From Hemerocallis citrina (lineage: Eukaryota; Streptophyta; Magnoliopsida; Asparagales; Asphodelaceae): a stretch of DNA of 64,000 bases. Both the position numbers and the translations under genes were made by a program. The notes below the pieces were generated by a model. The model did not search any database. It saw nothing but the letters and a program-made list of their open reading frames with translations, and was not told the origin of the DNA. This document shows positions 12,213-63,756 of this stretch, piece by piece (positions within the stretch are counted from its first letter, which is position 1; the number at the start of each line of letters is the position of its first letter). The stretch lies in assembly GCA_017893485.1 (NCBI GenBank), contig CM030366.1:99569085-99633084 (forward strand), written 5' to 3'.

Positions 12213-12510
12213 GGAGCCAACAAACGAACCGAAGGGCCCGCCGAGCTTTAAGACTCAGAATCTCCCAGCTCCTCCCATGAGGTCTTCACCTTATTGTAGA
12301 AGTAGGATCCTGATTTTCAATAAGGCCGGTGCTTATAACCCGGCCGATAGCATGTAATAATGGCTCGCCCTATTGAAGCGGCCACTTAGTTTATTTCAAA
12401 CTTTACATCTTTTCATTGAAAATTATTGCTCTTGCTTCTCTCTTAAATGGTGGGTTCGGAGTCCAGCTTCTTCTACATGGCTGCTCCCGCAACTTACTAA
12501 CCTTAAACAA

Positions 12511-18840: not shown

Positions 18841-19082
18841 AGAGAACCCCAACAGGACCAAAACTCACTAATCCATCGTCAAAAGATCAAAGAAGAAATC
18901 TCTCCACTCAACAAAACCTATATCTTTATATAATTCCAGAATCCAAATCCAACTATAAAATATCTTGAAAATATATGTTTTGTAGAAATAGTAGCCTTTA
19001 GATTAATAAGTTATAGATTAAAGCATTTAGAGTAAAAAATCATTTGAAAGAACATTCATAGATATAAGGATACATCAGTACC

Positions 19083-35417: not shown

Positions 35418-35738
35418 GGAGCCAACAAACGAACCGAAGGGCCCGCCGAGCTTTAAGACTCAGAATCTCCCAGCTCCTCCCAAGAGGTCTTCACCTTATT
35501 GTAGCAGTAGGATCTTGATTTTCAATAAGGCCGAGGCTTGTAAATCGGCCAACAGTATGTAATAATGGCTCGCCTTATTGGAGCGGCCACTTAGTATATT
35601 TCAATAAAACTTTACATCTTTTCATTGAAAATTATTGCTCTTGCTTCTCTATCTCTCCGAGTCACGACTCGCTAAATGGTGAGTTTAGAGTCCAGCTTCT
35701 TCTACATGGCTGCTCCCGCAACTTACTGACCTTTAACA

Positions 35739-36090
35739 ACGAGTTCGGAGTCCAATACTTGGCTCGATTCCGCTTCAAATAACTTGCTCTTCAGCGAGTT
35801 AGAAGTGGTTCGCCATTCGGAATTGCTCCCACAACCGTTGAATCCCTCTAACAACGAGTTCAGAGTCCAACACTTGGCTCGATTCTGCTTCAAATAACTT
35901 GCTCTTCAGCGAGTTAGAGGTGGTTTGCCATTCGGAATTGCTCCCACAACTGTTGAATCTCTCTAACGACGAGTTCGGAGTCCAACACTTGGCTCGATTC
36001 CGCTTCAAATAACTTGCTCTTCAGCGAGTTAGAAGTGGTCTGCCATTCGGAACTGCTCCCACAACCGTTGATACTCTCTTAAAAGACAAG
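35739..36090 (+). repeat. Minisatellite type 1 in TR-GAG copy B
   Basis: Three units of about 115 bp, homologous to 12511-13092 of copy A (which has five). Confidence 0.88.
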
Positions 36091-37400
36091 TTCGGAGCAC
36101 AACTCTCTCTTAGAGTTCCTCTTCACACTCGTCTCACAAATGGCTCTCTCCCAGAGCCGAGCTCTTCACTCCGCTCACCTCCGAAGCGGACCTCTTCTCA
36201 ACGAGTTCGGGGCACAACTCTCTCCTAGAGTTCCTCCTCACACTCGTCTTCCAAATGGCTCTCTCTCAGAGCCGAGCTCTTCACTCCGCTCACCTCCGAA
36301 GCGGACTTCTTCTAAATGAGTTCGGAGCTTACAACTCTCCCCTAGAGTTCCTCCTCACACTCGTCTTCCAAATGGCTCTCTCCCAAAGCCGAGCTCCTCA
36401 CTCCGCTCGCCTCCAAAGCGGACCTCTTCTCAACGAGTTCGGAGCTCACAACTCCCCCCTAGAGTTGCTCCTCAAACTCGTCTTCCAGATAGCTTTCTCT
36501 TAGAGCCAAACTCTTCACTTCGCTCGCCTCCGAAGCGGACCTCTTCTCAACGAGTTCGGAGCTCACAACTCTCTCCTAGAGTTGCTCCTCAAACTCGTCT
36601 TCCAAATAGGCTCTTCCCCAGAGCCGAGCTCTTCACTCCGCTCGCCTCCGAAGCGGACCTCTTCTCAACGAGTTCGAAGCTCACAACTCCCCCCTAGAGT
36701 TGCTCCTCAAACTCGTCTTCCAGATAGCTCTCTCCTAGTGCCGAGCTCTTCACTCCGCTCGCCTCCGAAGCAGACCTCTTCTCAACGGGTTCGGAGCTCA
36801 CAACTCTCTCCTAGAGTTACTCCTCAAACTCGTCTTCCAAATGGCTCTTCCCCAGAGCCGAGCTCTTCACTCCGCTCGCCTCCGAAGTGGACCTCTTCTC
36901 AACGAGTTCAGGGCGCAATTCTCTCCTAGAGTTCCTCCTCACACTCGTCTTCCAAATGGCTCTCTCCCAGAGCCGAGATCTTCACTCCGCTCGCCTCCGA
37001 AGCGGACCTCTTCTCAACGGGTTCGGAGCTCACAACTCTCTCTTAGAGTTGCTCCTCAAACTCGTCTTCCAAATGGCTCTTCCCCAGAGCCGAGCTCTTC
37101 ACTCCGCTCGCCTCCGAAGCGGACCTCTTCTCAACGAGTTCGGATCTCACAACTCTCTCCCATAGTTGCTCCTCAAACTCGTCTTCCAGATGGCTCTCTC
37201 CTAGAGCCGAGCTCTTCGCTCCGCTCACCTCCAAAGCGGATCTCTTCTCAATAAGTTCGGAGCTCACAACTCTCTCCTAGAATTGCTCCTCAAAACTCGT
37301 CTTCCAGATGGCTCTCTCCTAGAGTCGAGCTCTTCACTCTGCTTGCTTCCAAAGCAAACCTCTTCTAAGCGAGTTCGGAGCTCAAAACTCTCCCATAGAG
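36091..37400 (+). repeat. Minisatellite type 2 in TR-GAG copy B
   Basis: About eleven units of roughly 111-120 bp, often 117 bp, with GAGTTCGG starts near 36201, 36317, 36437, 36556, 36669, 36788, 36904, 37018, 37135, 37253 and 37371. Homologous to 13093-13760 of copy A (about six units). Because 117 is a multiple of three, 39-residue repeats appear open in more than one frame. These are not genes. Confidence 0.9.
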
Positions 37401-38689
37401 TTGCTCCTTACACTCTCTTCAAAGAATGGGTCTTCCCATGGCTCTTAAGAGGATCTTCCTAGCACGTCTTCTCCACCCCTAGAAGTGGAGCTCCTCTTCA
37501 AAAATCTCCAAAACCAAACAGAGCATCACCTCTTCCATATGCCGACCCATCCCCTTCATCAACTCGCCGAGCTTCTCCTCGCGCTCGAGCCGTCCGAACT
37601 CCGAGCTCCACTACACCGAGCTACTACGGGCAGAGGGTGAACTACCGAGTCACCGAGCCTAGTGGACGAGGTACCGACCCCCACATATGGAGAAAAATTC
37701 TGCCGATCCTATCTCACCGTCGGATCGTCTCAAAATTCGTGCTAGAACATGATGAATGGCTCAGATCGTGCCACGTCTCCACAAAACGACAAGATAACGT
37801 TTTCTCGAAATGTGAGCCTCTTGTCTTGTGATTCGCGCCACGATCGTGATCAACCATCCAGATGGAGCCACGTTGCTCGGATCTGAAATCCGATCTACCG
37901 AACTGCAAAGTGGCAAAAATGCACCTCAAAATCCGTGCTCGGATCTGCCGAACAAGACGCATCTGCCGAGCAGCAAAGCAGTTGAAGAGGAAGAAAGAAA
38001 AAGAGGCTAACGGGTCGGGGTCGGATCCGATACCCATGGTTCGACCCATACCCTTCTTAGCTCCTTCATTCTTCTCCTTCTTCTTCAATCTTCCCGCCAA
38101 AAGTACCCAACACTTCTCCTCTTCTTCACTGTGTGAAAGAACAAGGCAGAGGAGAGAACCCAAATGCCTCTCCTCCCCTTCTTCTTTCTTCTCAGGGCCG
38201 AGCTCCCCCATGGCCAAGCTGCCAAGCCGAAGGGACGAGGTACCGACCTCCACATATGGAGAAAAATTCTGCCGATCCTATCTCACCGTCAGATCGTCTC
38301 AAAATTCATGCTAGAACATGATGAACGGCTCAGATCTTGCCACGTCTCCACAAAACGACAAGATAGCGTTTTCTCGAAATTTGAGCCTCTTGTCTCTTGA
38401 TTCGCACCACGATCGTGATCAACTGTCCAGATTGAGCCACGTAGCTCGGATCTCACATCCGAGCTACCGAACTACTGAACTACAAAGTGGAAAAAATGCA
38501 CCTTAAAATCTGTGCTCGGATCTGCCGAACAAGACGCATCTGCCTAGCAGCAAGGAAGAGAGAGAGAGAAAGAAAAGAGAGGAAAAAAAAAGGAGAGGTC
38601 GGGTTCGGACCCATTAAGGGGACCCAAACCCAAACCGAGCCAACCCCTCCTACTTCACTTCTCTTCTTCTCCACTCTCCCGCCAAAACA
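37401..38689 (+). other. TR-GAG copy B 3' noncoding region with duplicated block
   Basis: No gene. A segment of over 300 bp is present twice, at about 37670-37990 and 38240-38550. It contains TATGGAGAAAAATTCTGCCG, ACGACAAGATA, and a CTCGGATCTGCCGAACAAG part. Intervening text is C/T-rich. Confidence 0.65.
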
Positions 38690-42524: not shown

Positions 42525-45500
42525 TGTAACACCCTAGATTTTAATTATTGTTTTAATTTTAATAAATGAATTAAAATAATTTTTTGTGATTTAATAATTA
42601 TTTTTCTGGAATTTACCTTTTGACACATGCAAATATTTTTTGGGAAGTTCAAAGTCAGAAATTATTTTGGGAAAACCTAACATTTATTAATAGGTATTAT
42701 TTGTGAATTTTTTGGATTTTTCTGATAATTATTTTATTTATTTGCAAATAATATAAAAAGAGGGAGTTTTGTGCAAAATTACCACTTAGAGTAAAAATTC
42801 CAAATTATCTGATTTTTGGGCTGAGCATGATGGCTAGTCAACTTAGAGGTAAAGAGTTTACCTTTTATTTTAATATATTTTGTTTATTTTGCAAGTTTTG
42901 TTAAAGAAGGGTCTTTTCGCAAAATTGCCACTTAGAGGCAAAATTTACAAAATTTGTTTTCTGGATTTTACAAACAGTGTCGGCCAGATCTGGAGTATTT
43001 TTTTTTGTTTAAATTTAAATTGAATTGGTTTATCTAATTTCCAAGTATAAAGATTTATATATGTAAAAATATATTCAAAAGGGATATTTTACAAATCTAT
43101 TCAAAAACCCTAATTACTTGAATGCCGGCCAATATAAGGTGAGGTGCAGCCATCTCTTTGTTGCACTACACAAAGGGTTTTCTTTATTATTATTTTCTTG
43201 GAGTTTTGAAACGAAGATCTTAGTTTTCTTGCGAAATGAAGGACTTTTCTTATTCTTTTATTATCTTCAAATGATTCCTCAATAAGGTGAGTGAAATATG
43301 TTTGTTTTCTTATTACTCTAAGCATGTTGTATGTGATGATTTATCTATTAGAAAGCATGTTAGGTGATTCTATGATGATATAATGAACTTGATGTACGAA
43401 TGAATAAAAATTGAATCTTTTTCATGAAAACTACGCTTTTGATGATTAAAACCATAAATAGATGACTTGAGATTATTAAAAACCTAACAGAATCAATGGA
43501 TAGGTTGTTTTCCTTCATAATCTTGCTGTTTTGATTACACCTACTGAGTTTGTATGTTGAGTGTTGCATATAGTGAATAATCAAATTCTTTACAGTGTAT
43601 ACATGTTCACGTTCATGTTCTGATGCTTTCGGATGAGCAAAAACTTAATGAAAGATGGTTGTAATTACTTACATTCATGGGTAAACTGATGTGGGTGAGT
43701 GTGTATATGTTTAAGAAAGATTCAAAGGAGTTTTGAAGTCGAAAGGATCAAGTTTTGAAAGAAAAAGGGTTTTGATATTTTCAGGTCTGATTGTACACAG
43801 ATCGAAATTGATTTTTGTGTGTTTTGTGAAGTTTTCAACTGGATCCTGATTATTTTCATACTGGGATTGAATTAGATATTATACTCCTTCTATTTGATGA
43901 GTTTTAATGCTATAACTGATGCTTAAACCCTTATATGAACACACACATATATATATGTATATTGCTGTTTTGAAGAGTTTTTGTGAAGAATTACTCCTTT
44001 AAGATCTTGATGTGATTTTGATTTGTTTTATAAACTCCAGTATGGTTTACAAGTTGTATTCAATCATCTCAGAATTTGGTTTTACAAATTTGTGATTTTA
44101 CAAAGTGTAATCACTGTATCAGTCGAAATGTGCACAAACTTTAAAACTGGCTGTATAGCAGCCAACGGTCGACTGAACGATCGACCGACATTCTTTAAAT
44201 TGGGAATTTTCACTTGACATTCGACTGCCCTGTATTTGCACTGTTTGAGTGGTCGACCGTCGGTTGCTTTACTAGCTTTTTTTGTTGAATTTTCTTCGTT
44301 CTTTTTAAACGGTTATTTCTTCGATATTATGGACTATTGATCTACTATTTTAGATGAAGCTACAGATTACTGTATTTTACAGAAAGTTGTATTTTGATTA
44401 TAATAGATTTTTAATTGTAAAGTGACATACATATTTTTTCTTGAAGAAATTGATAAATTGTGATATTCTACGATTTCAAAATATGATTCTCAGTTATCTA
44501 AATGGATTTAATATTTTATTTGAATTCTAAAATTTTATGAGTACATTAAATAAATTTGGATTTGTTAACTTTTAAGAAGTTTTCTTAATATGAGAGTATT
44601 GGTAATGGGATTAAGAGTTTTAATGAAAGATTTGGTATTGACGATGGAATTCTGAGTCTCTAGAGGGTGAGTGGGACCCTAGTACACCGGCAGTTGAGAT
44701 TTTTGTGGTTTGGCTAGTTGTGGCCTTGTTATTGATCAGTTGAGTTAAGACCGGTAGGGTACATCAACTCTAGGAGATTCGTAATTAATTAATTAACTTA
44801 AAAGATAAGGACATGCACTAGATGATGATATGATGAAATGGGTGCAAACATGGGTTATGGACCTTAGTATGATCTGCAGTGTGAGATAATCTCCAGAATT
44901 ATCGAGGTGTGAGTGAAATAGTCTCCGGAATTAACTGTGGTGTGGGATTGATCTCCAGAATTATCGGGGTCGAGGCGATGCTCATGGGGTATTCGTGTGA
45001 TGAGGCATCATAGCTTGCGGTGTGGGGTATTCTCGAAGATTCCTAGGTGTAAGTGAAATAGTCTCCGGAATTATCTGTGGATAGAGATTGACCTTGGGCA
45101 TGGGCTAAATACTCACAGTTTATCTAAATATCATAGTAGTCATCGTAGTAGGATTAGTTGCATAACGAGGGATTTAACCCTATTAAGTGGAGAACGTTAA
45201 GGGATTGCACCGGATCTATGTAGAGTGGGGAGCATAGATTCGACAAGTATGCATTAGAGAGTCATCATATAGCACTGGTGTTTTCTTGACTTAGTTTTAT
45301 GCATGTTTCCTGTTTTCCTACACTTGACACTTAGTCTAGTTTCACTTGCTGTTTTCATGTTTTATCTATTTATTAACTCCTTCTTTTCATTTATTATTAC
45401 TGTTGGTATATGTTGTTTATGACTTTATCCGTTATGTTTTATTTATATCGCATTTTCTCTTGATGTCACTCACACCGTTATGGCTGACCCCGTAGTTTAG

Positions 45501-45794
45501 GGGTTAGGGTTATCTCTAGCCTCATGTTTTACAGGAAGGTACCTATATCTTGGGATTTGGATGCATGTGGTAGAATGATAATGTAGCTTATGTAAATTGT
45601 AAAAGAATGTGTTGTAAAAGAAAGAATCTATAATTCAAGGTGTTTGTTTTCTGCTGTGTTTTGTAAAGAAATGATGTAATAAAAGTTGAAAATTTTATCT
45701 TTGTTTTGGCTATGTTTACTATTACATTGAGGTTGATGCTGGGAATCGTGTCATGTATTTCTGATATATTATATTGGAAATTCAGGGCGCTATA
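42525..45794 (+). repeat. 5' LTR of the Tekay element
   Basis: A 3,270-bp LTR, TGTAACACCC to GGGCGCTATA; the final CA has become TA. TATA-like AATATAAGG lies near 43130. Degraded relatives of the GTCGACT motif occur near 44166 and 44253. A cluster of TCTCC(A/G)GAATTA words (44888-45080) corresponds to the part expanded into the 164-bp repeat in the solo LTR at 18090-18840. Confidence 0.92.
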
Positions 45795-47199: not shown

Positions 47200-49752
47200 A
47201 AATAAAAGCAAAAGTTTTATTTGATACTGGCTCTTCGCATACATTTGTGTCGCCCAATTTTGCTAAAGTCTTAGGTGTGGAACCTAGGATGTTTTCAGAC
47301 AGAGTCTTGTCAGTGACAACACCATCATGAGAAGAATTAATTGCTGATCGATATTGCGAGGCTGTGATATCAAGATTGGTGGAAGATTATTTGACATTGA
47401 TCTCATCGAGCTGCAAGTTCTGGGCATGGATGTGATTGTGGGCATTGGTTGGATGGAAATATATAATGCCACAATTGAATGCAAGAAGAAAGAGGTTTTG
47501 GTAAAAGTACCAGGAGGTCCCGCAGTGACTTTTCAAGGGAAGAGGAAGGACCTGAAAGTAGCTGCAATGGTATCTAAGTTGATGATCCCAGATGAAGTCA
47601 GAAGCATTCCAGTTGTTAGGAATTTTCCTACGGTATTCTTAGAAGATTTTTCGGGATTACCGTCGCAGCGAGATGTTGAGTTCTGTATTAATGTTCAGAC
47701 AGGGAGTGCTCCGATTTCTAAGGCTCCGTTCAGGATGGCACTTGTAGAGCAAGATGAAATTAAGAAGCAGATTAAGGAATTGCTGAGTAAGGGTTTCATC
47801 AGGCCGAGTTCTTCACCGTGGGGTGCGCCAGTGTTGTTGGTCAAGAAGAAGGATGGGCCAATGAAGATGTGCATTGACTATTAGGAGTTGAATAGGGTGA
47901 CTATTCAGAACAAGTATCCACTTCCACAAATTGATGATCTGTTTGATAGGCTTCGGGGAGCAGTTGTGTTTTCGAAGATTAATCTGCGAGCAGGGTATCA
48001 TCAGGTTCGAGTCGAAGGGGAAGATGTGAGTAAAACATCTTTCAGGACTCATCATGGACTCTATGAGTTTTTGGTAATGCCATTCGAAGTGACGAATGCA
48101 CCGACAGTATTCATGGATATGATGAATCAGATTTTGCAGCCATTAATTGATTCATTCGTGGTGGTTTTTATTGATGATATTTTGGTATATTCGAAGTCGG
48201 AGGATGAGCATTCTATGCACTTGGCAGAGGTATTTAAGAAGTTGCAGAAGCATAGCTTGTATGCCAAGCTGTCGAAGTGTGAGTTTTGGAAGTTAGAGGT
48301 AGCTTTCCTTGGTCATATCCTTTCTAAGGAGGGAGTGGTCACTGATCCTCAGAAGGTTGAAGCAGTGAAGGATTGGCCCATGCCAACGACAGTGAAGGGT
48401 CAGAAGTTTCTTGGCTTTGGCTGGGTATTACAGGAGATTCATTCAGGGTTATGCACAAATTGCAGTTCCTTTGACAGGGTTAACTCGGAAGAATGTGGCA
48501 TTCACATGGACTGATAAGTGTGAGGCGAGTTTCCTTGAGCTAAAGGAGAGGTTGACGACTGTGCCTATCTTAGCTTTACCACAAGATAGGAAGGATTATG
48601 GTATCTACAGTGATGCATTTCTCAGAGGTTTGGGGTGTGTCTTGATGCAGGAAGGCAAGGTTATTGCCTATAGTTCGAGGCAATTGCATCCGTATGAGAA
48701 GAATTATCTGACGCATAATTTGGAGTTGGCAGCTACTATCTTTGCCTTGAAGCAGTGGAGGCATTATGTATATGGAGAGAAGGTCAACATGTATACCGAC
48801 CACAAGAGCTTGAAGTACATTTATCAATAGAAGGATCTCAATCTTCGGCAGAGAAGGTGGTTGGAAGTATTGGAAGACATTCGTCCTGAGATCAAGTATC
48901 ATCCGGGCAAGGCGAATGTGGTGGCCGATGGGTTTAGTCGGAAGAGTAGTTTGTCGAGTTTGATTACTACTCAGAGGGAGTTGGCAGCAAAGTTTGATCA
49001 AGCAGGTATCAAGGTTGTACTGCAGGATTTGGGAGCGTCTTTGGTTCAGTTGAGGCTGCAGCCTTCTTTGAGATAGTATATTGTGGAAGGTCAGAAATCA
49101 GATGCAGAGATTCAGAAGATGTTGCAGCAGGTTTCCGATAGCAAGTTATCAGAGTTCCGTATCCAAGATAGAATTCTATGGATGGGTGAAAGGTTGTGTG
49201 TTCCGAAGAATGCAGATTTGAGGGAGAGTATCTTGCAGGAAGCACACAGTATTTTGTTGTTAGTACATCCTAGAAGCACAAAGATGTACAAGGACATCAA
49301 ACAGCACTTTTGGTGGTCTGGTATGAAGAGGAATGTGGTAGATTTTGTAGCAAGGTGTCTGACTTGTCTGCAGATCAAAGCAGAGGATCAGAAGCATGGA
49401 GGTTTGTTACAACCTTTGCCTATTTCGGAATGGGAGTGGGAGAATATCAGCATGGATTTCATCTCAGGGTTGCCGAGGAGTCCGAAGGGAAATGACTCAA
49501 TTTGGGTTATTGTAGACCATTTGACTAAGTCAGCTCACTTTTTGTCCATGAAGATTACTTGGTCGTTGGAGAAATTGGCAGAGCTGTACATTGATGAGAT
49601 TGTGAGACTTCATGGAGTTCCTGTGTCAGTTGTTTCCGACAGGGATGCGAGGTTCACTTCGATGTTTTGAAGAGTTTACAAGCAGCTTTGGGTACCAGAA
49701 CCGATTTCAGTACGGCTTTTCATCCACAGACTGATGGTCAGACTGAAAGGGT
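47200..49752 (+). pseudogene. Tekay pol, upstream part: protease, RT, RNase H, integrase start
   Basis: Protease LFDTGSSHTFVSPNFA is near 47218 with the catalytic DTG. Reverse transcriptase covers about 47740-48400 (IRPSSSPWGAPVLLVKKKDG; catalytic FIDDIL near 48170), with a TAG at 47881-47883 and a frame change near 48410. RNase H covers 48430-48830 ([40 protein letters not shown]), with stops at 48828-48830 and 49075. Integrase starts near 49200: [40 protein letters not shown] and [11 protein letters not shown] are present. A frame change near 49668 precedes HPQTDGQTERV, and there the copia element begins. Confidence 0.9.
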
Positions 49753-51175
49753 TGTTGATTCTTGATTTTGATGATCACAACACAGTGCCACATGTGTTTA
49801 TATTATACAGCTAACAATGCAGTGTACATATCAAAAGACAATTCTAGCTGAACAAATGCACAAGGATACAGCTCAAGACAAGGATCAAGACTTTACTCAA
49901 AGCAAGGATCAAAGACTCAATTCAACTCAAGACTCAAGCTTAAATGTGTTATATTGTTGTGTCTTGTAAAAATTGTAATGTACTTTCCTGTTGAGTCTTT
50001 AGTCTGATGTAAAGCCTTGTCAACACACACACACACACACTTAACAATTTCATATTGTGTGTCTCTAAAAAACCCCTCAAAATAAGTCAAAACAGTTTGA
50101 AGAATTTTAGCTTTTAAGTACCAGTCGACTTAAGCCTATGCCAGTCGACTGATAAGTACGAAACTGTTTAAAATTATTCAAACTCTGATCAGTCGACTCA
50201 TATGGCAACCCAGTCGACTGATCGAGAGCTTTTTGACCGTTTTCTGATTTTCAAAAACGAACTTTTTCAAATTTAAACGGTTTGATCCGTTGGTTGACAG
50301 TTATGTAACTGCTTTCCAACGTTCAGAAGTACAAAACTCTTTATATAGAGTTTCTTCTCAAAACAGAAACAATTCACTTGACTACTTGATTTCCAAAAAA
50401 AAAAAACACCCGAGCACTCTTGAGAAAAATTTAAGTGATTTTCTGTGAAGAACAAAGCTTTCAAGTTCACATACTTTGGTTCTCTACACTCAGTCCAGTA
50501 TAGCATTGAATTCGCTTTGGACTGAGTATAGAAGTCAACCTATTGTTTTAGCCACGTGCATCAACACATACAACAACAAGGCTATAGGTTGATTGTAAAA
50601 TTCCTCTTGTACTCTTGCTCTCGGTTGGAGAGTGTTTTTGACTCTTAGTTGTAGAGTCGGTGTCTTTTCATTCTTGGTTGAAGAGTGGGTCTGCTTTCTC
50701 TGGTTGAGAGAAAGGACTACGGGTTAGACAAGGTTGTTGTCTTGAACGCCGTAGGGTATTCTTGTATTTTTTTTCAAGAATAGTGGAAATCTCAAGTGGG
50801 TTGCTTGGGGACTGGATGTAGGTCGGGAGGACCGAACCAGGATATATCTTGTGTACTCTGTGATTGGTTGTCTTGTGATTGCATTTACTTTTGATCAATT
50901 ATACTCTGCAAAACTAATCTGACCAGTCGACTCAGCTTCGTATCAGTCGACTGATCAGTCTCGTATTAGTTATTCTCTTTGTCTCATCAGTCGCCTGTAT
51001 TATCTATCAGTCGACTGTTTCGAGAGGTTAAATTTATTTTATTTTTGGCTATATCAGTCGACTGGTTCCCCACTGAGTCGACTGTGCCGAAGAAATTTTT
51101 TATTCCGCAATTTATTTTCATTAACACTATTCACCCCCCCTCTAGTGTTTGTTGCTTAGCCTACAGGATCCAACA
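49753..51175 (+). repeat. 5' LTR of the SIRE element
   Basis: A 1,423-bp LTR from TGTTGATTC to GGATCCAACA. It has an AC microsatellite at 50023-50040 (one unit longer than in the 3' LTR) and a TATA box (TTTATATAGAG, about 50339). Five AGTCGACT pairs start at 50123/50143, 50191/50212, 50925/50945, 50989/51009 (first member AGTCGCCT) and 51056/51076. Antisense open frames at 50273-50506 and 50668-50898 recur unchanged in the other LTR simply because the LTRs are near-identical. Confidence 0.95.
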
Positions 51176-51177
51176 CT

Positions 51178-51189
51178 TGGTATCAGAGC
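51178..51189 (+). promoter_or_regulatory. Primer-binding site of the SIRE element (tRNA-iMet)
   Basis: TGGTATCAGAGC, an exact initiator tRNA-Met complement, 2 nt after the LTR. Confidence 0.95.
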
Positions 51190-51202
51190 AAGGTTACAGG
51201 CA

Positions 51203-52969
51203 ATGGCAACTACATCAAATACTAATCAGTACCATGAAGGACAATCTACACAACGACCACCACTATTTGATGGAACAAACTATAACTATTGGAAGTGCCG
51301 AATGCGAATCTATCTCCAATCAATCAACTACGAGATATGGCAAATGACAGAGACGGAACATACTGCTCCTACCATTCCATATGCACAATGGAATGATGAT
51401 CAAAAGAGTCAGACTATGAACAATGCCAAAGCAATGAATGCCTTATTCTGTGCACTGACGAAGGAAGAATTCAACCGTGTATCCAATGCTACAACCGCAT
51501 ATCAAATTTGGCATACACTCGAGGTAACACATGAAGGAACGAATAAAGTAAAAGAATCTAAAATTTCTGTTCTTGTCCACAGGTTTGAAATGTTCAGAAT
51601 GAAGGACAATGAGACTGTGTCTGAGATGATTACAAGATTCACAGACATTACCAACTCTCTTGTGGCGCTTGGAAAGACTTATACTCAAGCAGAGATGGTC
51701 AGAAAAGTTCTACGAGCACTCACTCCAGAATGGGAAAAGAAAACCACAGCAATAGAAGAGGCAAATGACTTGTCAACACTTACTCTCGAGAATCTTGTTG
51801 GTAATCTCATGGCATATGAGGTTCAACTTGAAGATCGAAAGAAAGATACTGAATCACACCAAGCAAAGAAGAAATCATTGGCTTTTAAAGCCATGACTGA
51901 CTCAGAAGATGAGGAAGAAGATGAAGAAGAAATAGCAATGTTCACTCGGAGATTCAAGAAGTTCTTAAAGAAGGGTAAGTTTCATTCTAAGAGTAAAGAT
52001 TCTAATGACCCTCCTACATGTTTCAGGTGCAATAAGATAGGTCACATGAAGAAGGACTGTCCCTTAGAAACTGCAAAGAACAAGGGAAAAACATCCAACT
52101 TCAAGAAAGACAAATATTCAAAGAACAAATTTGCCAAGAACAAAAAGGCGTATCAAGCCACATGGGATGATAGCGATTCATCTTCCGAAGAAGAAACGGA
52201 TGAAAATAACGAAGTGGCAAATGTATGCTTTATGGCTGCACAAGAACATGTAAGTAATGATTATGATTCTGAAGATCTTCTTGATGCATTTAATGAAATA
52301 TTCCAAGAATTAAAGAAAGAAAAGATTAGAGTTAAGAATCTTGAGAAAGTGAATCAAACACTTAATCAAGAAAATCTTAACCTTGATAAGGAAGTAAAAT
52401 CCTTAAATTCTCGTCTTGCAAGTCTAGATACTGATCTTGAAACTCTCAAAAAGAATTATGAAGAGATTTCAAAGAATGTATCTAAGTTTAACAAAGGCAA
52501 AGAGAATTTAAATGATATGCTTCATCATCAAGTTGCATCTAGTCATAAATTTGGACTTGGTTTTAAGAAATCTTCTATAAAAGAATCTCCTGTTTTAAAC
52601 ACTAGTAATACTAAGTCAGCATCTATTTCTAGTGTTACACACAGGTTATATGATTTCTTTGCAAAACCACAGGTTGTTAAATTCAGTGATAAAAGTGATA
52701 CTAACGTTCGGTTAAGTCGACTGAACCATAGTACCAGTCGTCTGTCCAGAGAAAGTGGATCTCATTCCACGGGATCAAAACCTCTTATAAGTCGACCTAG
52801 TGCATCTACCAGTCGACTGATACATACCAACAGTCGACTGATAAACACTGGTACCCAAGAAAGAACGCTGGATATTAGACAGCGGATGTTCAAAACACAT
52901 GACAGGGCATGCCAACTTACTATCCACCATTCAGAATATAGATGGAGGAACCGTCACCTTTGGAGATAA
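51203..52969 (+). CDS. gag: SIRE gag polyprotein
   Basis: 588 codons from ATG 51203, the first ATG after the PBS. The open frame extends back into the LTR, but that part has no gag text. Residues about 20-230 form the copia-type gag (UBN2) region ([63 protein letters not shown]). An acidic stretch ([11 protein letters not shown]) leads to one CCHC knuckle, [14 protein letters not shown], near 52019. Next comes a long predicted coiled coil (about residues 365-440; [19 protein letters not shown]) as in SIRE gags. The C-terminus is Ser/Arg-rich, encoded by AGTCGACTG repeats (SRL). The last about 40 codons overlap the protease start in another frame. Structurally intact. Confidence 0.93.
52715..52839 (+). 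repeat. AGTCGACT motif cluster inside gag
   Basis: Motif starts at 52715/52736 (second is AGTCGTCT) and at 52790 (AGTCGACC), 52811 and 52832. All neighbouring starts within a group are 21 bp apart, which keeps the reading frame. In the gag frame the motif reads Ser-Arg-Leu. Confidence 0.93.
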
Positions 52970-55900
52970 CAACAAAGGCAAAGTCATCGGTATTGGCATG
53001 GTCGGTAAAATATCTAACCCTATTATAGAAAATGTGCTTTTAGTTAATGGTTTAAAGCATAATCTCTTAAGTATTAGTCAATTGTGCGATAAAGGTTATA
53101 AAATAGTCTTTGAAAAAGATGCATGCTTAATTTATGATTCTACTATGGAAAATGTTATTTTTCAAGGTTGTCGCAAAAACAATATTTATGAATTATGTTT
53201 GAATGCAATTGATTTTTCAAATGATTTTTGTTTGATAGTCTCTAACAATGAACCTTGGTTATGGCATAGAAGATTTGGACATGTGAACATGAAAAATCTC
53301 TCAAAATTATCTAAATATAACCTAGTTAAAGGACTGCCAAAATTATCCTTTAAAAAGGATAAGTTATGTGATGCATGTCAACTAGGAAAACAAATCAAAT
53401 CCACTTTTAAAACAAAAGATGTAATCTCTACAAGTAGGCCACTTGAATTAATCCATATGGACTTATTTGGCCCTACTAGAGTTGCTTCTTTAAATAAAAG
53501 TAGATATGTGTTTGTTTTAGTAGATGATTTTTCAAGATTTACTTGGACATTCTTTTTAAAACATAAAAATGATGCTTTTGAAGAATTTGCACATTTTTGT
53601 AAACGTGTTCAAAATCAAAGATCTCTAACCATAGTCACTATTAGAAGTGATCATGGTGGAGAATTTGAAAATGAAACATTTACAGAATACTGCAACAAGA
53701 ATGGTATAACACACTCATTTGCATTTCCTAGAGCTTCACCACAAAATGGTGTGGTTGAAAGAAAGAATAGGACTTTGCAAGAATGCGCACGTACTATGCT
53801 TGTTGAAAGCAATCTACCAAAGCATTTTTGGGCTGAAGCTGTTGCTACAGCTTGTTATGTTTTGAATAGAATTCTTCTAAGATCTAAACTAAAGAAGACT
53901 TGTTACGAGTTATTTTTTAATAAAATTCCTAAAGTCTCTTACTTTAAAACATTTGGTTGTAAGTGTTTTATTCTAAACACAAAAGATAATTTAGACAAAT
54001 TTGATCCTAGATCTAATGAGGGTATCTTTTTAGGATACTCAAATAGGAGTAAAGCATATAGAATTTTCAATAAGTCTACTATGACTATTGAAGAATCAAT
54101 GCATGTTACATTCGATGAATCCTTACCTTCATCAACATTAAATAAGGATGATGAAACTGATTTATCACCTTTAGATAATGTGATTACATCCTTAGAGCAA
54201 ACTAATCTATCTGATAAGTCGACTGATAAAGTCTCCAAGTCGACTGACTTAAACCAGTCGACTGAAGAACAAGTCAAGTCGACTGATCCGATTGTGATAT
54301 CTTCAACTTTACCAAAGTCATTTGTTGAAGTTAAAGATCATCCTCATGACTTAATAATTGGTGACATCTCCCATGGTATTCAGACACGTTCACATATTAA
54401 TATGATCTCTCATACAGCATTCTTGTCAGATTTTGAACCAAAGAATATACAAGAAGCATGTGAGAATGAATATTGGGTGAATGCCATGCAAGATGAACTA
54501 AACCAATTTGTAAGAAATGATGTATGGGATTTAGTTCCTAGACCTCCTGATCAGACTATCATTGGTACCAAATGGGTATTCAAGAATAAGTTAGATGAAT
54601 CAGGACAAGTTGTAAGGAACAAGGCTAGATTAGTTGCCCAAGGATATAATCAAGAAGAAGGTATAGATTTTGATGAAACATATGCTCCTGTTGCTAGACT
54701 AGAATCTATTCGTATTTTATTATCTTTTGCCTGTTTTATGAATTTTATACTTTATCAAATGGATGTGAAAAGTGCCTTTCTTAATGGGTTCATTAAGGAA
54801 AATGTTTATGTTAAACAACCACCAGGTTTTGAACATGAACAATTTCCAGATCATGTTTATAAATTGAAAAAGGCTTTATACGGTCTTAAACAAGCACCTC
54901 GTGCTTGGTATGATCGTCTGAAAACTTTTCTTTTAGAAACAGGATTTGAAATAGGTAAAGTAGACACTACCTTGTTTATCAAAAGAGTTAAGAATGATAT
55001 CTTAATCATACAAATATATGTTGATGATATAATTTTTGGTTCTACTAATAATAATCTATGTCAAGAATTTGCTAATACCATGAAAAATGAATTTGAGATG
55101 AGTCACATGGGTGAACTCAATTATTTCCTTGGATTGCAAATTAAACAATCTTCAAATGGCATATTTATCAATCAAGGCAAATATGCAAAGGAATTACTCA
55201 AACGTTTTCACATGGATAGTACTAGTAGTAAATCCACACCTATGGCTACTACTACTACTCTTGACAAAGATTTATTAGGTAAGAGTGTTGATCAAAAACT
55301 CTATCGAGGTATGATTGGTTCACTCTTATATATTACTGCAAGTAGACCAGATATTATGTTCAGCGTATGTTTATGTGCTAGATATCAATCTAGTCCTAAA
55401 GAATCTCATTTAAAAGCAGTGAAACGAATTTTAAGATATATTAAAGGCACATCTGAATATGGTTTATTTTATCCACGCACCGATATTTTTCAACTTTTGT
55501 CTTATAGCGATGCCGATTTTGCTGGAAGCAAAACTGATCGCAAGAGTACTAGTGGTACATGTCACTTTTTGGGACATTCCCTAGTATCTTGGTGCAGTAA
55601 AAAGCAAAATTTTGTATCCCTATCAACCACAGAAGCTGAATATATTGCTGCAAGTTTAGCATGCGCTCAAATTTTATGGATGAAACAAACTTTGTTAGAT
55701 TATGGTATTTCATTTGAGAAACCCTCAATTATGTGTGATAATACCAGTGCAATTAATCTATCTAAAAATCCGATTCAACATTCACGTACGAAACATATTG
55801 ATATTCGACATCATTTTCTACGTGATCATGTTTTAAAAGGAGATATATCTTTAGAATTTATCTCTACTGATCAACAAGTAGCAGATATATTTACCAAGCC

Positions 55901-55970
55901 CCTTAAAGAAGAAACTTTTATCAAGTTAAGAAGAGAACTTGGAATTTGTGATTTTATTGATATTTGTTGA
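52845..55970 (+). CDS. pol: SIRE pol: protease, integrase, reverse transcriptase, RNase H
   Basis: The open frame runs from after the TAA at 52842. It begins at the protease active-site segment [13 protein letters not shown] (52869-52907), so the usual first ATG (52899) would cut the protease. Integrase follows: GAG-pre-integrase zinc region H-RRFGH...CDACQLGK near 53265-53390, then catalytic Asp in HMDLFGP (about 53455), Asp in [11 protein letters not shown] (about 53648) and Glu in [13 protein letters not shown] (about 53760). A linker rich in Lys-Ser-Thr-Asp, made by AGTCGACT repeats, lies at 54217-54290. Reverse transcriptase has [10 protein letters not shown] (about 54760) and YVDDIIFGS (about 55018). 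RNase H has [16 protein letters not shown] and STTEAEYIA, and the end is [10 protein letters not shown]. No stop interrupts it. It lies in the +1 frame relative to gag, so the fusion protein needs a frameshift, a splice or repair of an indel. Confidence 0.93.
54217..54284 (+). repeat. AGTCGACT motif cluster inside pol
   Basis: Four exact copies, starting at 54217, 54238, 54256 and 54277 (steps 21, 18, 21). In the pol frame the motif reads Lys/Gln-Ser-Thr-Asp/Glu, not Ser-Arg-Leu as in gag. It sits in the integrase-RT linker, which tolerates sequence change. Confidence 0.95.
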
Positions 55971-55984
55971 AAATCACTCTGTTA

Positions 55985-56400
55985 AGTCGACTGTGTTTTG
56001 AATCAGTCGACTATACTGAATTGTTATATATACATATTTTGTTCTCGACTAAGTCGACTGATTATCAATCCAGTCGACTGGTCAGCAGATATAAGATGTT
56101 ACTTTCTTCTCGACTCAGTCGACTGATATATCATACCAGTCGACTGTCGCGAGATCAATCTGTCTTCAGCGACTTTTCATCACAACTTTTGAGATAAAAG
56201 TTTTTCTCTATCTCACCCGTGACAACCCTATCTGACCGTTGATTTCATTTCCCTTTAATCTGAGCCGTCCTTTCTCTGTTAAAAACCCCTTCACCTGCCC
56301 CTCTTTCATACTCTTACCGATCTCTTTTTCACTTTTACCCCCAAATTGGAAACCCTAACGCAAGAAGAAGAAGAAGAGGCTCTAATCCGACAAGTCGACT
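55985..56400 (+). repeat. AGTCGACT motif pairs after pol
   Basis: Pairs start at 55985/56005, 56052/56072 and 56117/56138, with a single copy at 56393. The region is otherwise noncoding between the pol stop and the third ORF. Confidence 0.92.
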
Positions 56401-56469
56401 GCTGTTTTTGTATCTATCTCTCTTCAATTTGGTAACATCTCCTCTTTTTGTTTCCTTTTCAAAACCCTA

Positions 56470-57573
56470 ATGGCTCCCAAACGATCAAAAAGATCTCATG
56501 AGGGTTCTTCCTCTACACAGGAGTACACTCAATACCTTTTGAGCCCTGATCTCCTTGATCGTTGGTATTTATTTTGTACCATTCAAATCTTCCCTGGAAG
56601 ATTTGTAAACTTTAATGATTTAGATCCTTTTAATCTCACTCCACTTTTTCAAAATTCTAGTCTTTATGATATCCTTTCATTATCTAATCAACCCAATTAC
56701 TACCCCCAACTCATTTATTTGTTTTATACAAATATGAGGATTGTGAACAGACCTAATGGGGACGTACTAATCCGATCATCGGTGAAGAATGTTAGAATGC
56801 AACTCACACCGACTAGGATTAATGAAATTTTGGGTTTTGATGATGTCGGATCACCTCTTGATGACATTGTGTTAGATAACCCCTCTATTTTGTCTAGAAT
56901 TCTTTTACCACATTCTCGACTACCCATGACAAGCAAAAATCTACAACCAATTGCTAAGCTAGTTGGTAGAATATTAGCATATAACATCCTTCCTAAAAAG
57001 GGAAGTTATGACCAATATTCTCTTGAACTACAAAAAGCTATATATGCAATTTTTGGTAGAATAGCTGTTAATTGGGGTCATGTCCTCTTTTCGAAACTCA
57101 ATCAAGATCATACTCACTTTTTACCTTTTGGAGGACTTCTGACTAGAATCTTTTTCGCATATAAAATTGATCTTGAGTCTGAGACACATGTTGTCTCTAG
57201 ATATGAGTGTTTCGATCGTGCTAGTTTGGCACGTATGAAACTTCTTGATGCACCTCCTCAATCACCACCTCGATCTCCTCCAATGTCCCAAGCACCTTTA
57301 GGTTCTTCTGCTAGACCTTCTGCCTCGTCTAGTTCATCTCTTCCCACAGCCAACTATGATGATCCACGTACCATGTATGAATGTGTCAACTACCTTATGA
57401 AACATTCACAGACTGTGGATACACATATTCACGCCCTTGATTCCAGACTTGATTCCTTTGATTCTCAACTCCACCACATTGATTCCAAGATTGACAACCT
57501 CACCAATCTCTTCACCTCTCAATTTCGTCCTCCTTCTCATGATGACGATGAAGACTCGGATGAAGGCGATTGA
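56470..57573 (+). CDS. SIRE third ORF, possible plant-transposon-protein (Transposase_32-like) domain
   Basis: An intact 367-codon frame between pol and the 3' LTR, where SIRE elements often carry an extra or env-like gene. A short basic N-terminus (MAPKRSKRSHEGSSST) comes first. A globular part at about residues 20-240 has text such as FPGRFVNFNDLD, YYPQLIYLFYTNM, VKNVRMQLTPTRINEILGFDD and an AYNILPKKGSYDQYS stretch. A Pro/Ser linker (270-300), a heptad-like stretch (HALDSRLDSFDSQLHHIDSKIDNL, about 325-350) and an acidic tail (DDDEDSDEGD) follow. No signal peptide or membrane segment is visible, so it does not look like an envelope protein. The text resembles from memory the 'putative plant transposon protein' family found in many plant genomes; I could not run a search. 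The presumed upstream promoter or splice is unknown. Confidence 0.75.
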   Translation: MAPKRSKRSHEGSSSTQEYTQYLLSPDLLDRWYLFCTIQIFPGRFVNFNDLDPFNLTPLFQNSSLYDILSLSNQPNYYPQLIYLFYTNMRIVNRPNGDVLIRSSVKNVRMQLTPTRINEILGFDDVGSPLDDIVLDNPSILSRILLPHSRLPMTSKNLQPIAKLVGRILAYNILPKKGSYDQYSLELQKAIYAIFGRIAVNWGHVLFSKLNQDHTHFLPFGGLLTRIFFAYKIDLESETHVVSRYECFDRASLARMKLLDAPPQSPPRSPPMSQAPLGSSARPSASSSSSLPTANYDDPRTMYECVNYLMKHSQTVDTHIHALDSRLDSFDSQLHHIDSKIDNLTNLFTSQFRPPSHDDDEDSDEGD

Positions 57574-58081
57574 AGATTTTTATTATATGTACTCTTTAAT
57601 GGACTTATTTCTGTATGCAACTTTCTATTAGTCTCTTTTCTATGAAAAAGATGGTTATTATGTGCTTTTTGATGATTACAAAGGGGGAGAGATCTCTGAG
57701 TTCTATTTATGCTTGCTTATATTATCTGTGTTATTTTGGCTATCTGTTCTATTTATGCTTGCTTATATTATCTGTGTTATTTTGGCTGTACTGTTGAAAA
57801 TCTCTGGTCAGTCGACTGCTTCAAAGATTTAAGTCGACTGCTACTAAACTTCTGCTACTGTATCTGTACTGCTACTAAACTTCTGCTACTGTATCTGTAC
57901 TTATGTTTTTTTTTATATAAACTATCTGATCAGTCGCCTGCCAGTTGACACAGTCGACTGATACTGGTTTAAGAAAATGCATTCTGTGTTTTTAATAGGG
58001 GGAGCATATCCTTACTGTGCCTATATACATATTATCTGTTATTATCAGCTATTGTGTTGTCATCATCAAAAAGGGGGAGAA
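57574..58081 (+). other. SIRE 3' untranslated region, repeated purine tracts and PPT
   Basis: The true PPT, AAAAAGGGGGAGAA, is at 58068-58081, against the 3' LTR. Two similar G-rich tracts lie upstream: AAAGGGGGAGAG at about 57680 and ATAGGGGGAGC at about 57996. Tandem duplications of about 44 bp (57707-57788) and about 31 bp (57838-57900) are present. Motif pairs AGTCGACT start at 57810/57832 and 57932/57952. Confidence 0.85.
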
Positions 58082-59503
58082 TGTTGATTCTTGATTTTGA
58101 TGATCACAACACAGTGCCACATGTGTTTATATTATACAGCTAACAATGCAGTGTACATATCAAAAGACAATTCTAGCTGAACAAATGCACAAGGATACAG
58201 CTCAAGACAAGGATCAAGACTTTACTCAAAGCAAGGATCAAAGACTCAATTCAACTCAAGACTCAAGCTTAAATGTGTTATATTGTTGTGTCTTGTAAAA
58301 ATTGTAATGTACTTTCCTGTTGAGTCTTTAGTCTGATGTAAAGCCTTGTCAACACACACACACACACTTAACAATTTCATATTGTGTGTCTCTAAAAAAC
58401 CCCTCAAAATAAGTCAAAACAGTTTGAAGAATTTTAGCTTTTAAGTACCAGTCGACTTAAGCCTATGCCAGTCGACTGATAAGTACGAAACTGTTTAAAA
58501 TTATTCAAACTCTGATCAGTCGACTCATATGGCAACCCAGTCGACTGATCGAGAGCTTTTTGACCGTTTTCTGATTTTCAAAAACGAACTTTTTCAAATT
58601 TAAACGGTTTGATCCGTTGGTTGACAGTTATGTAACTGCTTTCCAACGTTCAGAAGTACAAAACTCTTTATATAGAGTTTCTTCTCAAAACAGAAACAAT
58701 TCACTTGACTACTTGATTTCCAAAAAAAAAAAACACCCGAGCACTCTTGAGAAAAATTTAAGTGATTTTCTGTGAAGAACAAAGCTTTCAAGTTCACATA
58801 CTTTGGTTCTCTACACTCAGTCCAGTATAGCATTGAATTCGCTTTGGACTGAGTATAGAAGTCAACCTATTGTTTTAGCCACGTGCATCAACACATACAA
58901 CAACAAGGCTATAGGTTGATTGTAAAATTCCTCTTGTACTCTTGCTCTCGGTTGGAGAGTGTTTTTGACTCTTAGTTGTAGAGTCGGTGTCTTTTCACTC
59001 TTGGTTGAAGAGTGGGTCTGCTTTCTCTGGTTGAGAGAAAGGACTACGGGTTAGACAAGGTTGTTGTCTTGAACGCCGTAGGGTATTCTTGTATTTTTTT
59101 TCAAGAATAGTGGAAATCTCAAGTGGGTTGCTTGGGGACTGGATGTAGGTCGGGAGGACCGAACCAGGATATATCTTGTGTACTCTGTGATTGGTTGTCT
59201 TGTGATTGCATTTACTTTTGATCAATTATACTCTGCAAAACTAATCTGACCAGTCGACTCAGCTTCGTATCAGTCGACTGATCAGTCTCGTATTAGTTAT
59301 TCTCTTTGTCTCATCAGTCGCCTGTATTATCTATCAGTCGACTGTTTCGAGAGGTTAAATTTATTTTATTTTTGGCTATATCAGTCGACTGGTTCCCCAC
59401 TGAGTCGACTGTGCCGAAGAAATTTTTTATTCCGCAATTTATTTTCATTAACACTATTCACCCCCCCCTCTAGTGTTTGTTGCTTAGCCTACAGGATCCA
59501 ACA
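58082..59503 (+). repeat. 3' LTR of the SIRE element
   Basis: A 1,422-bp LTR, near-identical to 49753-51175. Differences noted: one AC unit fewer, one C more in the C-run near 59461, and one T-to-C change (59000 area). The five AGTCGACT pairs are all conserved (first at 58450/58470). Confidence 0.95.
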
Positions 59504-59508
59504 AGGGT

Positions 59509-60433: not shown

Positions 60434-61848
60434 TGTATCACCCTAGATTTTAATTATTGTTTTAAGATTAATAAATGAATTAAAATGATTTTTGGTGATT
60501 CAATAAATATTTTTCTGAAATTTACCTTTTGACACGTGCAAATATTTTCTTGGGAAGTTCAAAGTCAGAAACTATTTTGGGGAAACCTAACATTTATTAG
60601 TAGGTATTATTTTTGAATTTTTTGGATTTTTCTGGTAATTATTTGACCTATTTGCAAATAATACAAAAAGATGGGCTTTTGTGCAAAATTACCACTTGGA
60701 GTAAAAATTCCAGATTTTCAGATTTTTGGGCTGAGCATGATGGCTAGTCAACTCAGAGGTAAAGATTTTACCTTTTATTTTAATGGATTTGGTATATTTT
60801 GCAAGTTTTGTTAAAGAAGGGTCTTTTTGCAAAATTACCACTTAGAGGTAAAATTTACAAAATTCATTTTCTGGGTTTTACAAACAGTGCCGGCCAGATC
60901 TAGAGTATTTGTTTTGTTTTAAATTTAAATTGAATTGGTTTATCTAATTTCCGAGTATAAAGATTTATAAATGTAAAGATATATTCAAAAGGGATATTTT
61001 ACAAATCTATTCAAAAACCCTAATTACTTGAATCCCGACCAATATAAGGTGAGGTGCAGCCGTCTCTTTGTTGCACTACACAAAGGGTTTTCTTTATTAT
61101 TATTTTCTTGGAGTTTCGAAGTGAGGATCTTAGTTTTCTTGCGAAAGGAAGAACTTTTCATTTTCTTTTATTATCTTCGATTGATTCCTCAATAAGGTGA
61201 GTGACATATGTTTGTTTTCTTATTGTTCTAAGCATGTTGTATGGGATGGTTTATCTATTAGAAAGCATGTTAGGTGATTGTATGATGATATAATGAACTT
61301 GATGGACGAATGAATAAAAATTGAGTCTTTTTCATGAAAACTATGCTTTTGATGATTAAAACCCTAAATAGATGACTTGAGATTATTAAGAACCTAATAG
61401 AATTCATGGATAGGTTGTTTCCCTTCATAATCTTGTTGTTTTGATTACACCTACTGAGTTTGTATGTTGAGTATTGCATATAGTGAATAATCAAGTTATT
61501 TACCGTGCATACATGTTCACGTTCATGTTCTGATGCTTTCGGATGAGTAAAAACTTAATGAAAGATGGTTGTAATTGCTTTTATTCATGTATAAACTGAT
61601 GTGGGTGAGTGTGTATATGTTTAACAAAGATTCAAGATGGGTTTTAAAGTCGAAAGGATCAAGTTTTGAAAGAAAAAGGGTTTTGATATTTTCAGGTCTG
61701 ATTGTACACAGATCGAAATTGAGTTTTGTGTGTTTTGTGAAGTTTTCAACTGGATCCTGATTATTTTCATACTGAGATTGAATTAGATATTATACTTCTT
61801 CTATTTGATTAGTTTTAATGCTATAACTGATGCTTAAACCCTTATATG

Positions 61849-61923
<75 letters not shown>

Positions 61924-63756
61924 CTATTTTTAAGAGTTTTTGTGAAGATTTACTCCTTTATGATCTTGATGTGATTTTGATTTTTTTTATAAACTCCAGT
62001 ATGCTTTACAAGTTGTATTCAATAATCTCAGGAATTTGGTTTTACAAATTTGTGATTTTACAAAGTGTAATCAGTGTAACAGTCGAAATGTGCACAAACT
62101 TTAAAACTGGCTATATAGAAGCCAACGGTCGACTGGCATTCTTTAAATTGGGAATTTTCACTTGACAGTCGCTGCTCTGTATTTGCACTGTTTGAGCGGT
62201 TGACCGTCAGTTACTTTACTGGCTGTTTTTGTTGAATTTTCTTCGTTCTTTTTAAACGGTTATTTCTTCGATATTATGGACTATTGATCTACTGTTTTAG
62301 ATGATGTCTTTGCTATAGGTTACTGTATTATATAGAGAGTTGTATTTTGATAGAGTTTTATTTGTAAAGTGACATACATATGTTTTCTTGAAGAAATTGA
62401 TAAATTATGATATTCTACGATTTCAAAAAAATGATTCTTAGTTATCTAAATGGATTTAATATTTTATCTGAATTCTGAAATTTTATGAGTACATTAAATA
62501 AATTTGGATTTGTTAACTTTTAAGAAGTTTTCTTAATATGAGAGTATTGGTAATTGGATTAAGAGTTTTAATGAAAGATTTGGTATTGACGATGGAGTTA
62601 TGAGTCTCTAGAGGGTGAGTGGGACCCTAGTACACTGGCAGTTGAGATTTTTGTGGTTTGTCTTGTTGTGGCCTTGTTATTGATCTGTTGAGTTAAGACC
62701 GATAGGGTACATCAACTCTAGGAGATTCGTAATTAATTAAATAACTTAAAAGATAAGGACATGCACTAGATGGTGATATGATGAAATGAGTGCAAATATG
62801 GGTTATGAACCTCAGTATGATCTGCTGTGTGAGATAATCCCCGAAATTATTGAGGTGTGAATGAAATAGTCTCCGGAATTACATGCGGTGTGGGATTGAT
62901 CTCCGAAATTATCGGGGTCGAGACGACGCTCATGGGGTATTCATGTGATGAGGCGCCATAACTTGTGATGTGGGGTATTCTCGAAGATTCCCAGGTGTGA
63001 GTGAAATAGTCTCCGGAATTATTTGTGGATAAAGATTGACCTCCAGAATTATCTGGGCATGGGCTAGATACACACAGTTTATCTAAATCTCATAGTAATC
63101 ATCGTAGTAGGATTAGTTGCATAACGAGGGATTTAACCCTATTAAGTGGAGAACGTTAAGGGCTTGCACCGGATCTATGTAGAGTGGGGAGCATAGATTC
63201 AAAAAGTATGCATTAGAGAGTCATCATATAGCACTGGTGTTTTCTTGACTTAGTTTTATGCATGTTGTTTCCTGTTTTCCTACACTTGACACTTAGTCTA
63301 GTTTCACTTGTTGTTTTCATGATTTATCTATTTATTAACTCCTTCTTTTCATTTATTATTACTGTTGGTATATGTTGTTTATGACTTTATCCATTATGTT
63401 TTATTTATATTGCCATTTTACTTGATGTCACTCACACCGTTATGGCTGACCCCGTAGTTTGGGGGTTAGGGTTATCTCTAGCCTCATGTTTTACAGGTAG
63501 GTACCTATAGCTTGGGATTTGGATGCATGTGGTAGAATGATAATGTAGCTTATGTAAATTATAAAAGAATGTGTTGTAAAAGAAAGAATATGTAATTCAA
63601 GGTATTTGTTTTCCGCTGTGTTTTATAAAGAAATGATGTAATAAAAGTTGAAAAATGTATCTATGTTTTGACTATGTTTACTATTACATTGAGATTGATG
63701 CTGGAAATCGTGCCACGTATTTCTGAGATATTATATTGGAAATTCGAGACGCTACA
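60434..63756 (+). repeat. 3' LTR of the Tekay element
   Basis: A 3,323-bp LTR with the same layout as 42525-45794. It contains an AT microsatellite of about 35 units (61852-61921) where the 5' LTR has only a short ACACATATAT tract. It ends GACGCTACA. Confidence 0.92.
61852..61921. repeat. AT microsatellite
   Basis: About 35 AT units, expanded in this LTR only. Confidence 0.95.

Follow-up and report, generated by a model that had tools for sequence, protein, structure and literature searches.

A stretch of 64,000 nucleotides of the Hemerocallis citrina genome (GenBank assembly GCA_017893485.1, contig CM030366.1, positions 99,569,085 to 99,633,084 of the forward strand; hereafter the window, to which positions refer) contains a young Sirevirus-type (SIRE) Ty1/copia element at 49753-59503 in which the palindromic motif AGTCGACT recurs in pairs with a step of 20-22 bp. 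The same step forms a peak genome-wide, and pairs are carried by the Ty1/copia SIRE lineage, by two Ty3 families and by a gag-only element. The unit is the pair, and it is longer than was described in a first-pass annotation made from the letters alone, the central observation of which is confirmed here. Judged from its pattern, the pair is likely to be a dyad-symmetric DNA operator and thus a candidate site for a protein.

Spacing of the motif in the window

The window holds 44 exact copies of the motif, where 0.52 would be expected; none of 100 shuffled sequences reached this count. The Sirevirus element holds 35 of these copies and the remaining nine lie at 19083-19473. Spacing was analysed in one long terminal repeat (LTR) plus the internal region of the element, accepting sites with at most one mismatch, which gave 31 sites and 30 adjacent distances. 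Half of the distances (15 of 30) are 20-22 bp (seven at 20, seven at 21 and one at 22), compared with a mean of 1.5 and a maximum of seven such steps in 20,000 trials of random placement within the clusters. Only a single other distance, of 18 bp, is shorter than 39 bp.

The first-pass annotation had proposed a fixed step of 20-21 bp with two exceptions, 18 bp at 54238/54256 and 22 bp at 57810/57832. The fixed step stands with 22 included, and the step of 22 is real; the 18, in contrast, separates two pairs that each have a step of 21 bp, 54217/54238 and 54256/54277. The starts that had been listed are correct, except that 50989 and 57932 read AGTCGCCT, with one mismatch. The intervening bases do differ from pair to pair, as had been stated: spacers are on average 0.31 identical to one another (0.67 at most), close to the 0.27 of random segments, and the pairs are not recent copies of one larger unit. 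Self-BLAST detected one local duplication among them (56035-56090 versus 56100-56155, 84% match).

The nine outlying copies belong to a second array, which had not been listed before and which comprises nine exact and five one-mismatch copies. It includes an 85-bp duplication at 19156-19324. The array also holds AGTTGACT and AGTCAACT variants, which have the look of CpG deamination.

The step across the genome

Exact pairs were counted in the whole assembly (3,775,421,867 bases) with the reversed pattern as the control; the count took in steps of 20-52. There are 106,585 pairs at step 20 (control 0), 176,843 at steps 20-21 together (control 3) and 27,293 at step 22 (control 1), while steps 23-52 sum to 92,306, or ~3,077 per step (control 100). 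A smaller sample was drawn as 20 blocks of 10 kb at round coordinates, ten of them on contig C1. Its 36 exact sites all lie in four of the 20 blocks, and the distances below 43 bp between them are 19 (once), 20 (eight times), 21 (five times) and 22 (once), with nothing else. The next commonest of 24 palindromes made of the same letters has nine copies in the sample, compared with 36 for AGTCGACT. A distance histogram lacking the peak in related elements would, according to the first-pass annotation, have spoken against a meaningful step; the peak at 20-22 is present in relatives, genome-wide and in the blocks. On viral contigs, five stretches with one pair each were found and were taken as chance.

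The composite unit and its flanks

Across families the unit reads TC[TG]GNNC-AGTCGACT-N11-14-AGTCGACT followed by the mirrored flank; that is, TC[TG]G is mirrored on both outer flanks and a C adjoins the box. Single sites tend to ATCAGTCGACTGAT. A weight matrix built from three families and tested on the fourth (52 pairs, four families) gave an area under the curve of 0.81-0.93 for the outer flanks and 0.52-0.84 for the inner flanks. A larger sample of 174 isolated pairs, drawn mostly from the first 2.6 Mb of contig C1 and from loci selected for pairs, was cut to 64 non-redundant pairs by far-flank dissimilarity, which is a heuristic; this procedure replaced a clustering by 7-mers that was dropped after placing 156 of the 174 pairs in one group. 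Among the 64 pairs, C at -6 is found in 47 left and 38 right flanks, G at -4 in 40 and 34, and C at -1 in 51 and 51. The first-pass annotation had suggested that a pair can display two identical sites on DNA, separated by two turns of the helix, and both the peak at 20-22 and the mirrored outer flanks across families support this suggestion.

Families that carry the pair

The first-pass annotation had proposed looking for the motif pair in other SIRE copies, and it was found in the Sirevirus relatives L025 and L008-L012; here, as for the other families, a label covers few loci. Pairs are also carried by L032, a relative of a Ty3 LTR, and by another Ty3 family, L006/L013. Locus L035, taken between two apparent LTR copies of the L006/L013 family, codes for Ty3 gag, protease and reverse transcriptase (RT) and is 73% identical to L032 over 1,847 bp including pol; the two share one more stretch, of 63 bp. 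L021/L022 constitute a further family, both members of which are matched at 73-84% by L034, a locus picked from listings. At L034:589-7153, LTRs that are 99.58% identical surround one gag-type open reading frame (ORF; PF03732), which a shorter ORF on the same strand overlaps, and the element is apparently non-autonomous. Its primer site has an Athila/Tat-like look.

In BLAST comparisons the motif regions of the families share little: the Ty3 LTRs have ~90-100 bp in common with L013 or L035, and the window Sirevirus has short box-containing stretches in common with L034 (78 bp at 78%, and 34 bp at 88% in the LTR).

Conservation of the boxes, coding copies included

Three Sirevirus LTRs were compared with the window; these probably represent two elements, L008 and L010 being probably both LTRs of one. 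At the motif letters 233 of 240 agree (94/96 in U3 and 139/144 in U5), compared with 0.58-0.90 outside the motif, gaps set aside. The steps drift between 20 and 22 among these LTRs through insertions and deletions in the spacer.

Several copies lie in coding sequence. Three exact copies of the gag cluster read SRL in frame 0, and the pairs 52715/52736 and 52790/52811 each include a one-mismatch partner. The box in the pol linker, a segment that is poorly conserved among 17 aligned relatives, reads KST or QST in frame 1. The gag ORF of L034 has four KST copies, arranged as heptads at 21-bp steps; its QST/SRL pairs precede the first methionine and may belong to a leader. Coding steps are 21 in both the window and L034. 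That they always are was an idea dropped on account of a 22-bp step in the gag ends of L025 and L009: in the gag frame of L025, SRL copies are followed by a step of 22 bp after which the next box is read as KST, and in L009 the same step is accompanied by a mutated box. The box thus persists across this change from SRL to KST although it is read differently. An explanation at the protein level was rejected, as the same letters give SRL and KST in gag and pol and even within the one L025 gag ORF. Seven-residue repeats of SRL, KST or VD were absent from the 120 listed of 7,997 pol relatives, and a protein search with the linker only returned no such repeats among 100 candidates. The patterns suggest that selection acts on the box at the nucleotide level, coding copies included.

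A putative operator and its alternatives

In the operator that we envisage, two palindromic CAGTCGACTG boxes 20-22 bp apart would face roughly the same side of the double helix and act as one, and the mirrored TC[TG]G outside both boxes would be part of the site. A sequence-specific DNA-binding protein in dimeric or tetrameric form would be the most likely occupant. Several retrotransposon lineages carry many copies, placed upstream of promoters, upstream of the Sirevirus third ORF and in tolerant coding segments. We infer binding of the pair by protein, with activation or anti-silencing as the outcome: the bound protein would raise transcription or keep the element unsilenced. Sites upstream of the LTR TATA-like box and of the third ORF would suit transcriptional control, and the copies elsewhere would fit a factor acting along the full length of the element, to open or protect it. 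The binder is probably encoded by the host rather than by the Sirevirus third ORF; a host factor is likelier, given that the unit is also present in a Ty3 family and in the gag-only element and that the stretches of these that were read show no third ORF.

At its widest, this proposal would describe a genome-wide network with one trans-acting factor. Copia and gypsy elements alike would have acquired an operator of ~44 bp, TC[TG]GNNC-AGTCGACT-N12-AGTCGACT plus the mirrored flank, whether by exchange or by convergence, and its copy number would have risen well above a hundred thousand. Different elements would thereby have a common activator or anti-silencer, and sites in coding sequence would be kept at the nucleotide level. 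We put this network forward tentatively, as a proposal slightly more apt to fail than to hold.

Several observations weigh against an operator. A plain enhancer would not usually have copies downstream of the TATA-like box, in gag and in pol. In the young Ty3 LTR at 42525-45783 the only related sites are weak and lack a step of 20-22; they are TCGA-type sites at 44167-44258, the place corresponding to the second array. The pol-linker array (54215-54289) matches the gag array of L034 (L034:3629-3706) at 78% over 78 bp, which goes beyond the boxes alone; recombination could have carried boxes from one family to another, and this match could reflect an exchange of arrays between copia and gypsy elements. 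The mirrored flanks are only partial, and some of the 64 pairs may be distant homologs, the cut being heuristic. The outer flanks of these 64 pairs also match each other below chance (112/384 versus 134 expected; lower-tail P = 0.006), a sign that a pair may have a strong side and a weak one. It looks as if long hairpins were avoided or as if one strong side were needed.

The binder could instead be encoded by an element, for example by the Sirevirus third ORF, in the manner of VANC proteins, the other families then being hitch-hikers. Short repeated motifs are the targets of VANC proteins, and that of VANC6 is also found in the unrelated AT9TSD1 (PMC5735166). The third-ORF protein, moreover, looks soluble: it has an acidic tail and is without a strongly hydrophobic 19-residue stretch, the maximum mean hydropathy being 1.14. 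However, PF20167 was returned alone by a domain search of this ORF and says nothing on DNA binding, and a single-sequence structure model was unusable and was dropped (predicted local distance difference test score of 40.7). A protein search gave no match at E 0.001 or better among 2,082 candidates; an alignment with 17 full-length proteins was not used, its domains being mixed. With no third-ORF-like ORF of at least 130 codons seen in the Ty3 and gag-only (L034) stretches that were read, we regard an element-encoded binder as unlikely.

The first-pass annotation had equally considered a stem in RNA. Pairs in the transcript would then fold as a stem of 9-16 bp with a loop of 12-14 nucleotides (nt) and have a role in packaging, translation or small RNAs; a 2016 maize study reportedly linked Sirevirus palindromes to hairpins and small RNAs. 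Folding is possible, and in the folding run that had been proposed all 15 stretches were more stable than the shuffle mean (z of -1.6 to -5.95), but this follows from self-complementarity: each box is its own complement, which allows any pair to fold. The position of the gag cluster, immediately ahead of the gag/pol overlap, would suit an RNA role. Energy-based permutation of the flanks gave P = 0.055 with 20-nt flanks (range 0.055-0.44), without significance. Outer pairing over the three positions beside the box gave P = 0.028 in the Ty3 array alone and P = 0.013 when pooled with the Sirevirus pairs (nominal range 0.007-0.031), and over one and two positions in 69 pairs P = 0.001 and 0.023, the self-dyad controls being raised too. 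In the larger fixed-register tests, by contrast, flank pairing shows no excess (114/312 versus 126.7 expected) and in the 64 non-redundant pairs it is the below-expectation 112/384 already given. Compensation was seen in none of the 15 pairs whose motif is mutated, nor in any of 19 in an overlapping set; the box sequence is fixed and does not covary, and sites also occur upstream of the TATA-like box. An anti-pairing of inner flanks in 14 window pairs (P of ~0.001) was gone in the 64 pairs and was discarded. A selected RNA stem is not supported, and we consider the hairpin explanation quite unlikely.

Very improbable, finally, is a neutral spread in which a ~21-bp tandem unit was expanded by slippage and carried along with the elements: local arrays do occur (the 85-bp duplication, a 58-bp duplication at 56035-56155 and the match between the pol-linker and L034 gag arrays), but spacers differ between pairs, the motif letters are far better conserved than their neighbours with slower decay of the box seen in three LTRs, mirrored flanks recur across families, and most Sirevirus steps in the window are separate pairs rather than longer runs.

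The host element

The features of the element and its surroundings are collected in Table 1. Close to its 3' LTR the element has several AGGGGGAG polypurine tracts, which are a hallmark of Sireviruses (PMC2829016). The gag and pol products match PF14223, zf-CCHC and RVT_2, and a coiled coil was taken from a Tropomyosin match below the curated cut-off. A run of C near the LTR end and a mid-LTR TATA-like box, recognized by eye or by simple pattern, complete the Sirevirus signals. The element is nested in a Ty3 element with LTRs at 42525-45783 and 60434-63745. The stretch before the third ORF (56150-56470) resembles a plant promoter and 5' untranslated region, with a AAACCCTAA box and a GAA-rich stretch, as if this ORF had a promoter of its own. 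Elsewhere in the window, two related stretches at 12506-13756 and 35734-37420 are arrays of 115-117 bp tandem units.

Table 1. Motif clusters and other features in the window
Feature	Position	Strand	Details
Diverged relative of Ty3 LTR (42525-45783 / 60434-63745)	17443-20798	-	72-78% matches
Second array of the motif	19083-19473		Steps 20-22; inside the diverged Ty3 LTR-like stretch 17443-20798
Target-site duplication	49748-49752 (left), 59504-59508 (right)		AGGGT, 5 bp
5' LTR	49753-51175	+	Self-BLAST, 99.72% to 58082-59503; starts TGTTGA, ends CCAACA
U3 cluster, upstream of TATA-like box	50123-50219		50123/50143 (20), 50191/50212 (21); 3' LTR counterpart 58450-58546
TATA-like box, mid LTR	50342-50347	+	LTR position 590; sequence pattern only
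Second LTR cluster, downstream of TATA-like box	50925-51083		50925/50945, 50989 (one mismatch)/51009, 51056/51076; all step 20
gag ORF	51203-52969	+	PF14223, CCHC knuckle (zf-CCHC)
gag 3'-end cluster	52715-52839		52715/52736, 52790/52811/52832; steps 21
pol ORF	52845-55970	+	Other frame than gag; integrase (rve), RVT_2
pol linker cluster, between SH3-like and RT domains	54217-54284		54217/54238, 54256/54277; steps 21
Three pairs upstream of third ORF	55985-56145		Steps 20, 20, 21
Single exact site upstream of third-ORF ATG	56393-56400
Third ORF, 367 aa	56470-57573	+	PF20167; acidic tail
Three AGGGGGAG polypurine tracts	57682-58079	+	At 57682, 57997, 58072
Pairs preceding 3' LTR	57810-57959		57810/57832 (22), 57932 (one mismatch)/57952 (20)
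3' LTR	58082-59503	+	Self-BLAST, 99.72% to 5' LTR
Second LTR cluster, 3' LTR counterpart	59252-59410

Comparison with known systems

The closest described motifs are the palindromic repeated motifs (RMs) of Sireviruses (Bousios et al., 2010; PMC2829016, the consulted sections of which are the source of what follows). RMs are present in at least eight copies per element; in the LTR most of them begin 200-400 bp from its start, in its upper half and upstream of the TATA box, further copies lie upstream of the ENV-like ORF, and the clusters form CpG islands. A CGG-CCG core is found in 12 of 13 published RMs, Tnd-1 being without it. The text consulted calls RMs Sirevirus-specific and gives neither a common binder nor a tested function for them.

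The motif described here resembles an RM in being a short perfect palindrome in many copies (35 exact ones in the element span), located in the LTR upstream of the mid-LTR TATA-like box and again upstream of the third, ENV-like ORF (55985-56145 and 56393). The Vitis RM CGGTCGACCG is one symmetric base apart from CAGTCGACTG. Two properties separate it from RMs: its core is GTCGAC rather than CGG-CCG, and it is not confined to Sireviruses, pairs also being found in the Ty3 carriers L032 and L006/L013 and in the gag-only L034. Its placement in the LTR agrees for four of ten sites (LTR positions 371-467, with the TATA-like box at 590), whereas the other six, at 1173-1331, lie elsewhere. The observed/expected CpG ratio of the host element (LTR plus internal region) is 0.54, a figure for the whole region. 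The pairing at 20-22 bp, the mirrored outer flanks, the second cluster downstream of the TATA-like box, the copies in gag and pol and the sharing with Ty3 elements go beyond RMs as they are described in that text. By analogy, the motif may work like Sirevirus RMs while falling outside two of their defining properties.

The nearest functional analogy may be provided by the targets of VANC proteins in VANDAL elements (PMC5735166 and PMC10398659), which are likewise short motifs repeated through a transposon and common to an unrelated element; unlike these, the motif here is a palindromic pair. As a lead only, GTCGAC also fits, on both strands, the CBF/DREB site class CBFHV, given as RYCGAC in the part of PMC5183650 consulted; the fit is one of letters, and the flanks, pairing and spacing are not part of CBFHV. 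The pair was not recognized as a named entity in the open-licence literature, judged partly by titles.

Compared with the RMs of 2010, the motif here shows a fixed helical spacing, an outward-facing mirrored extension and a wider reach, over copia and gypsy elements within one genome. The 44-bp site offers a precise bait for finding the protein and for testing whether lineages share a single activator or escape from silencing. Should they do so, much of the mobile DNA in this genome could be under the control of one factor.

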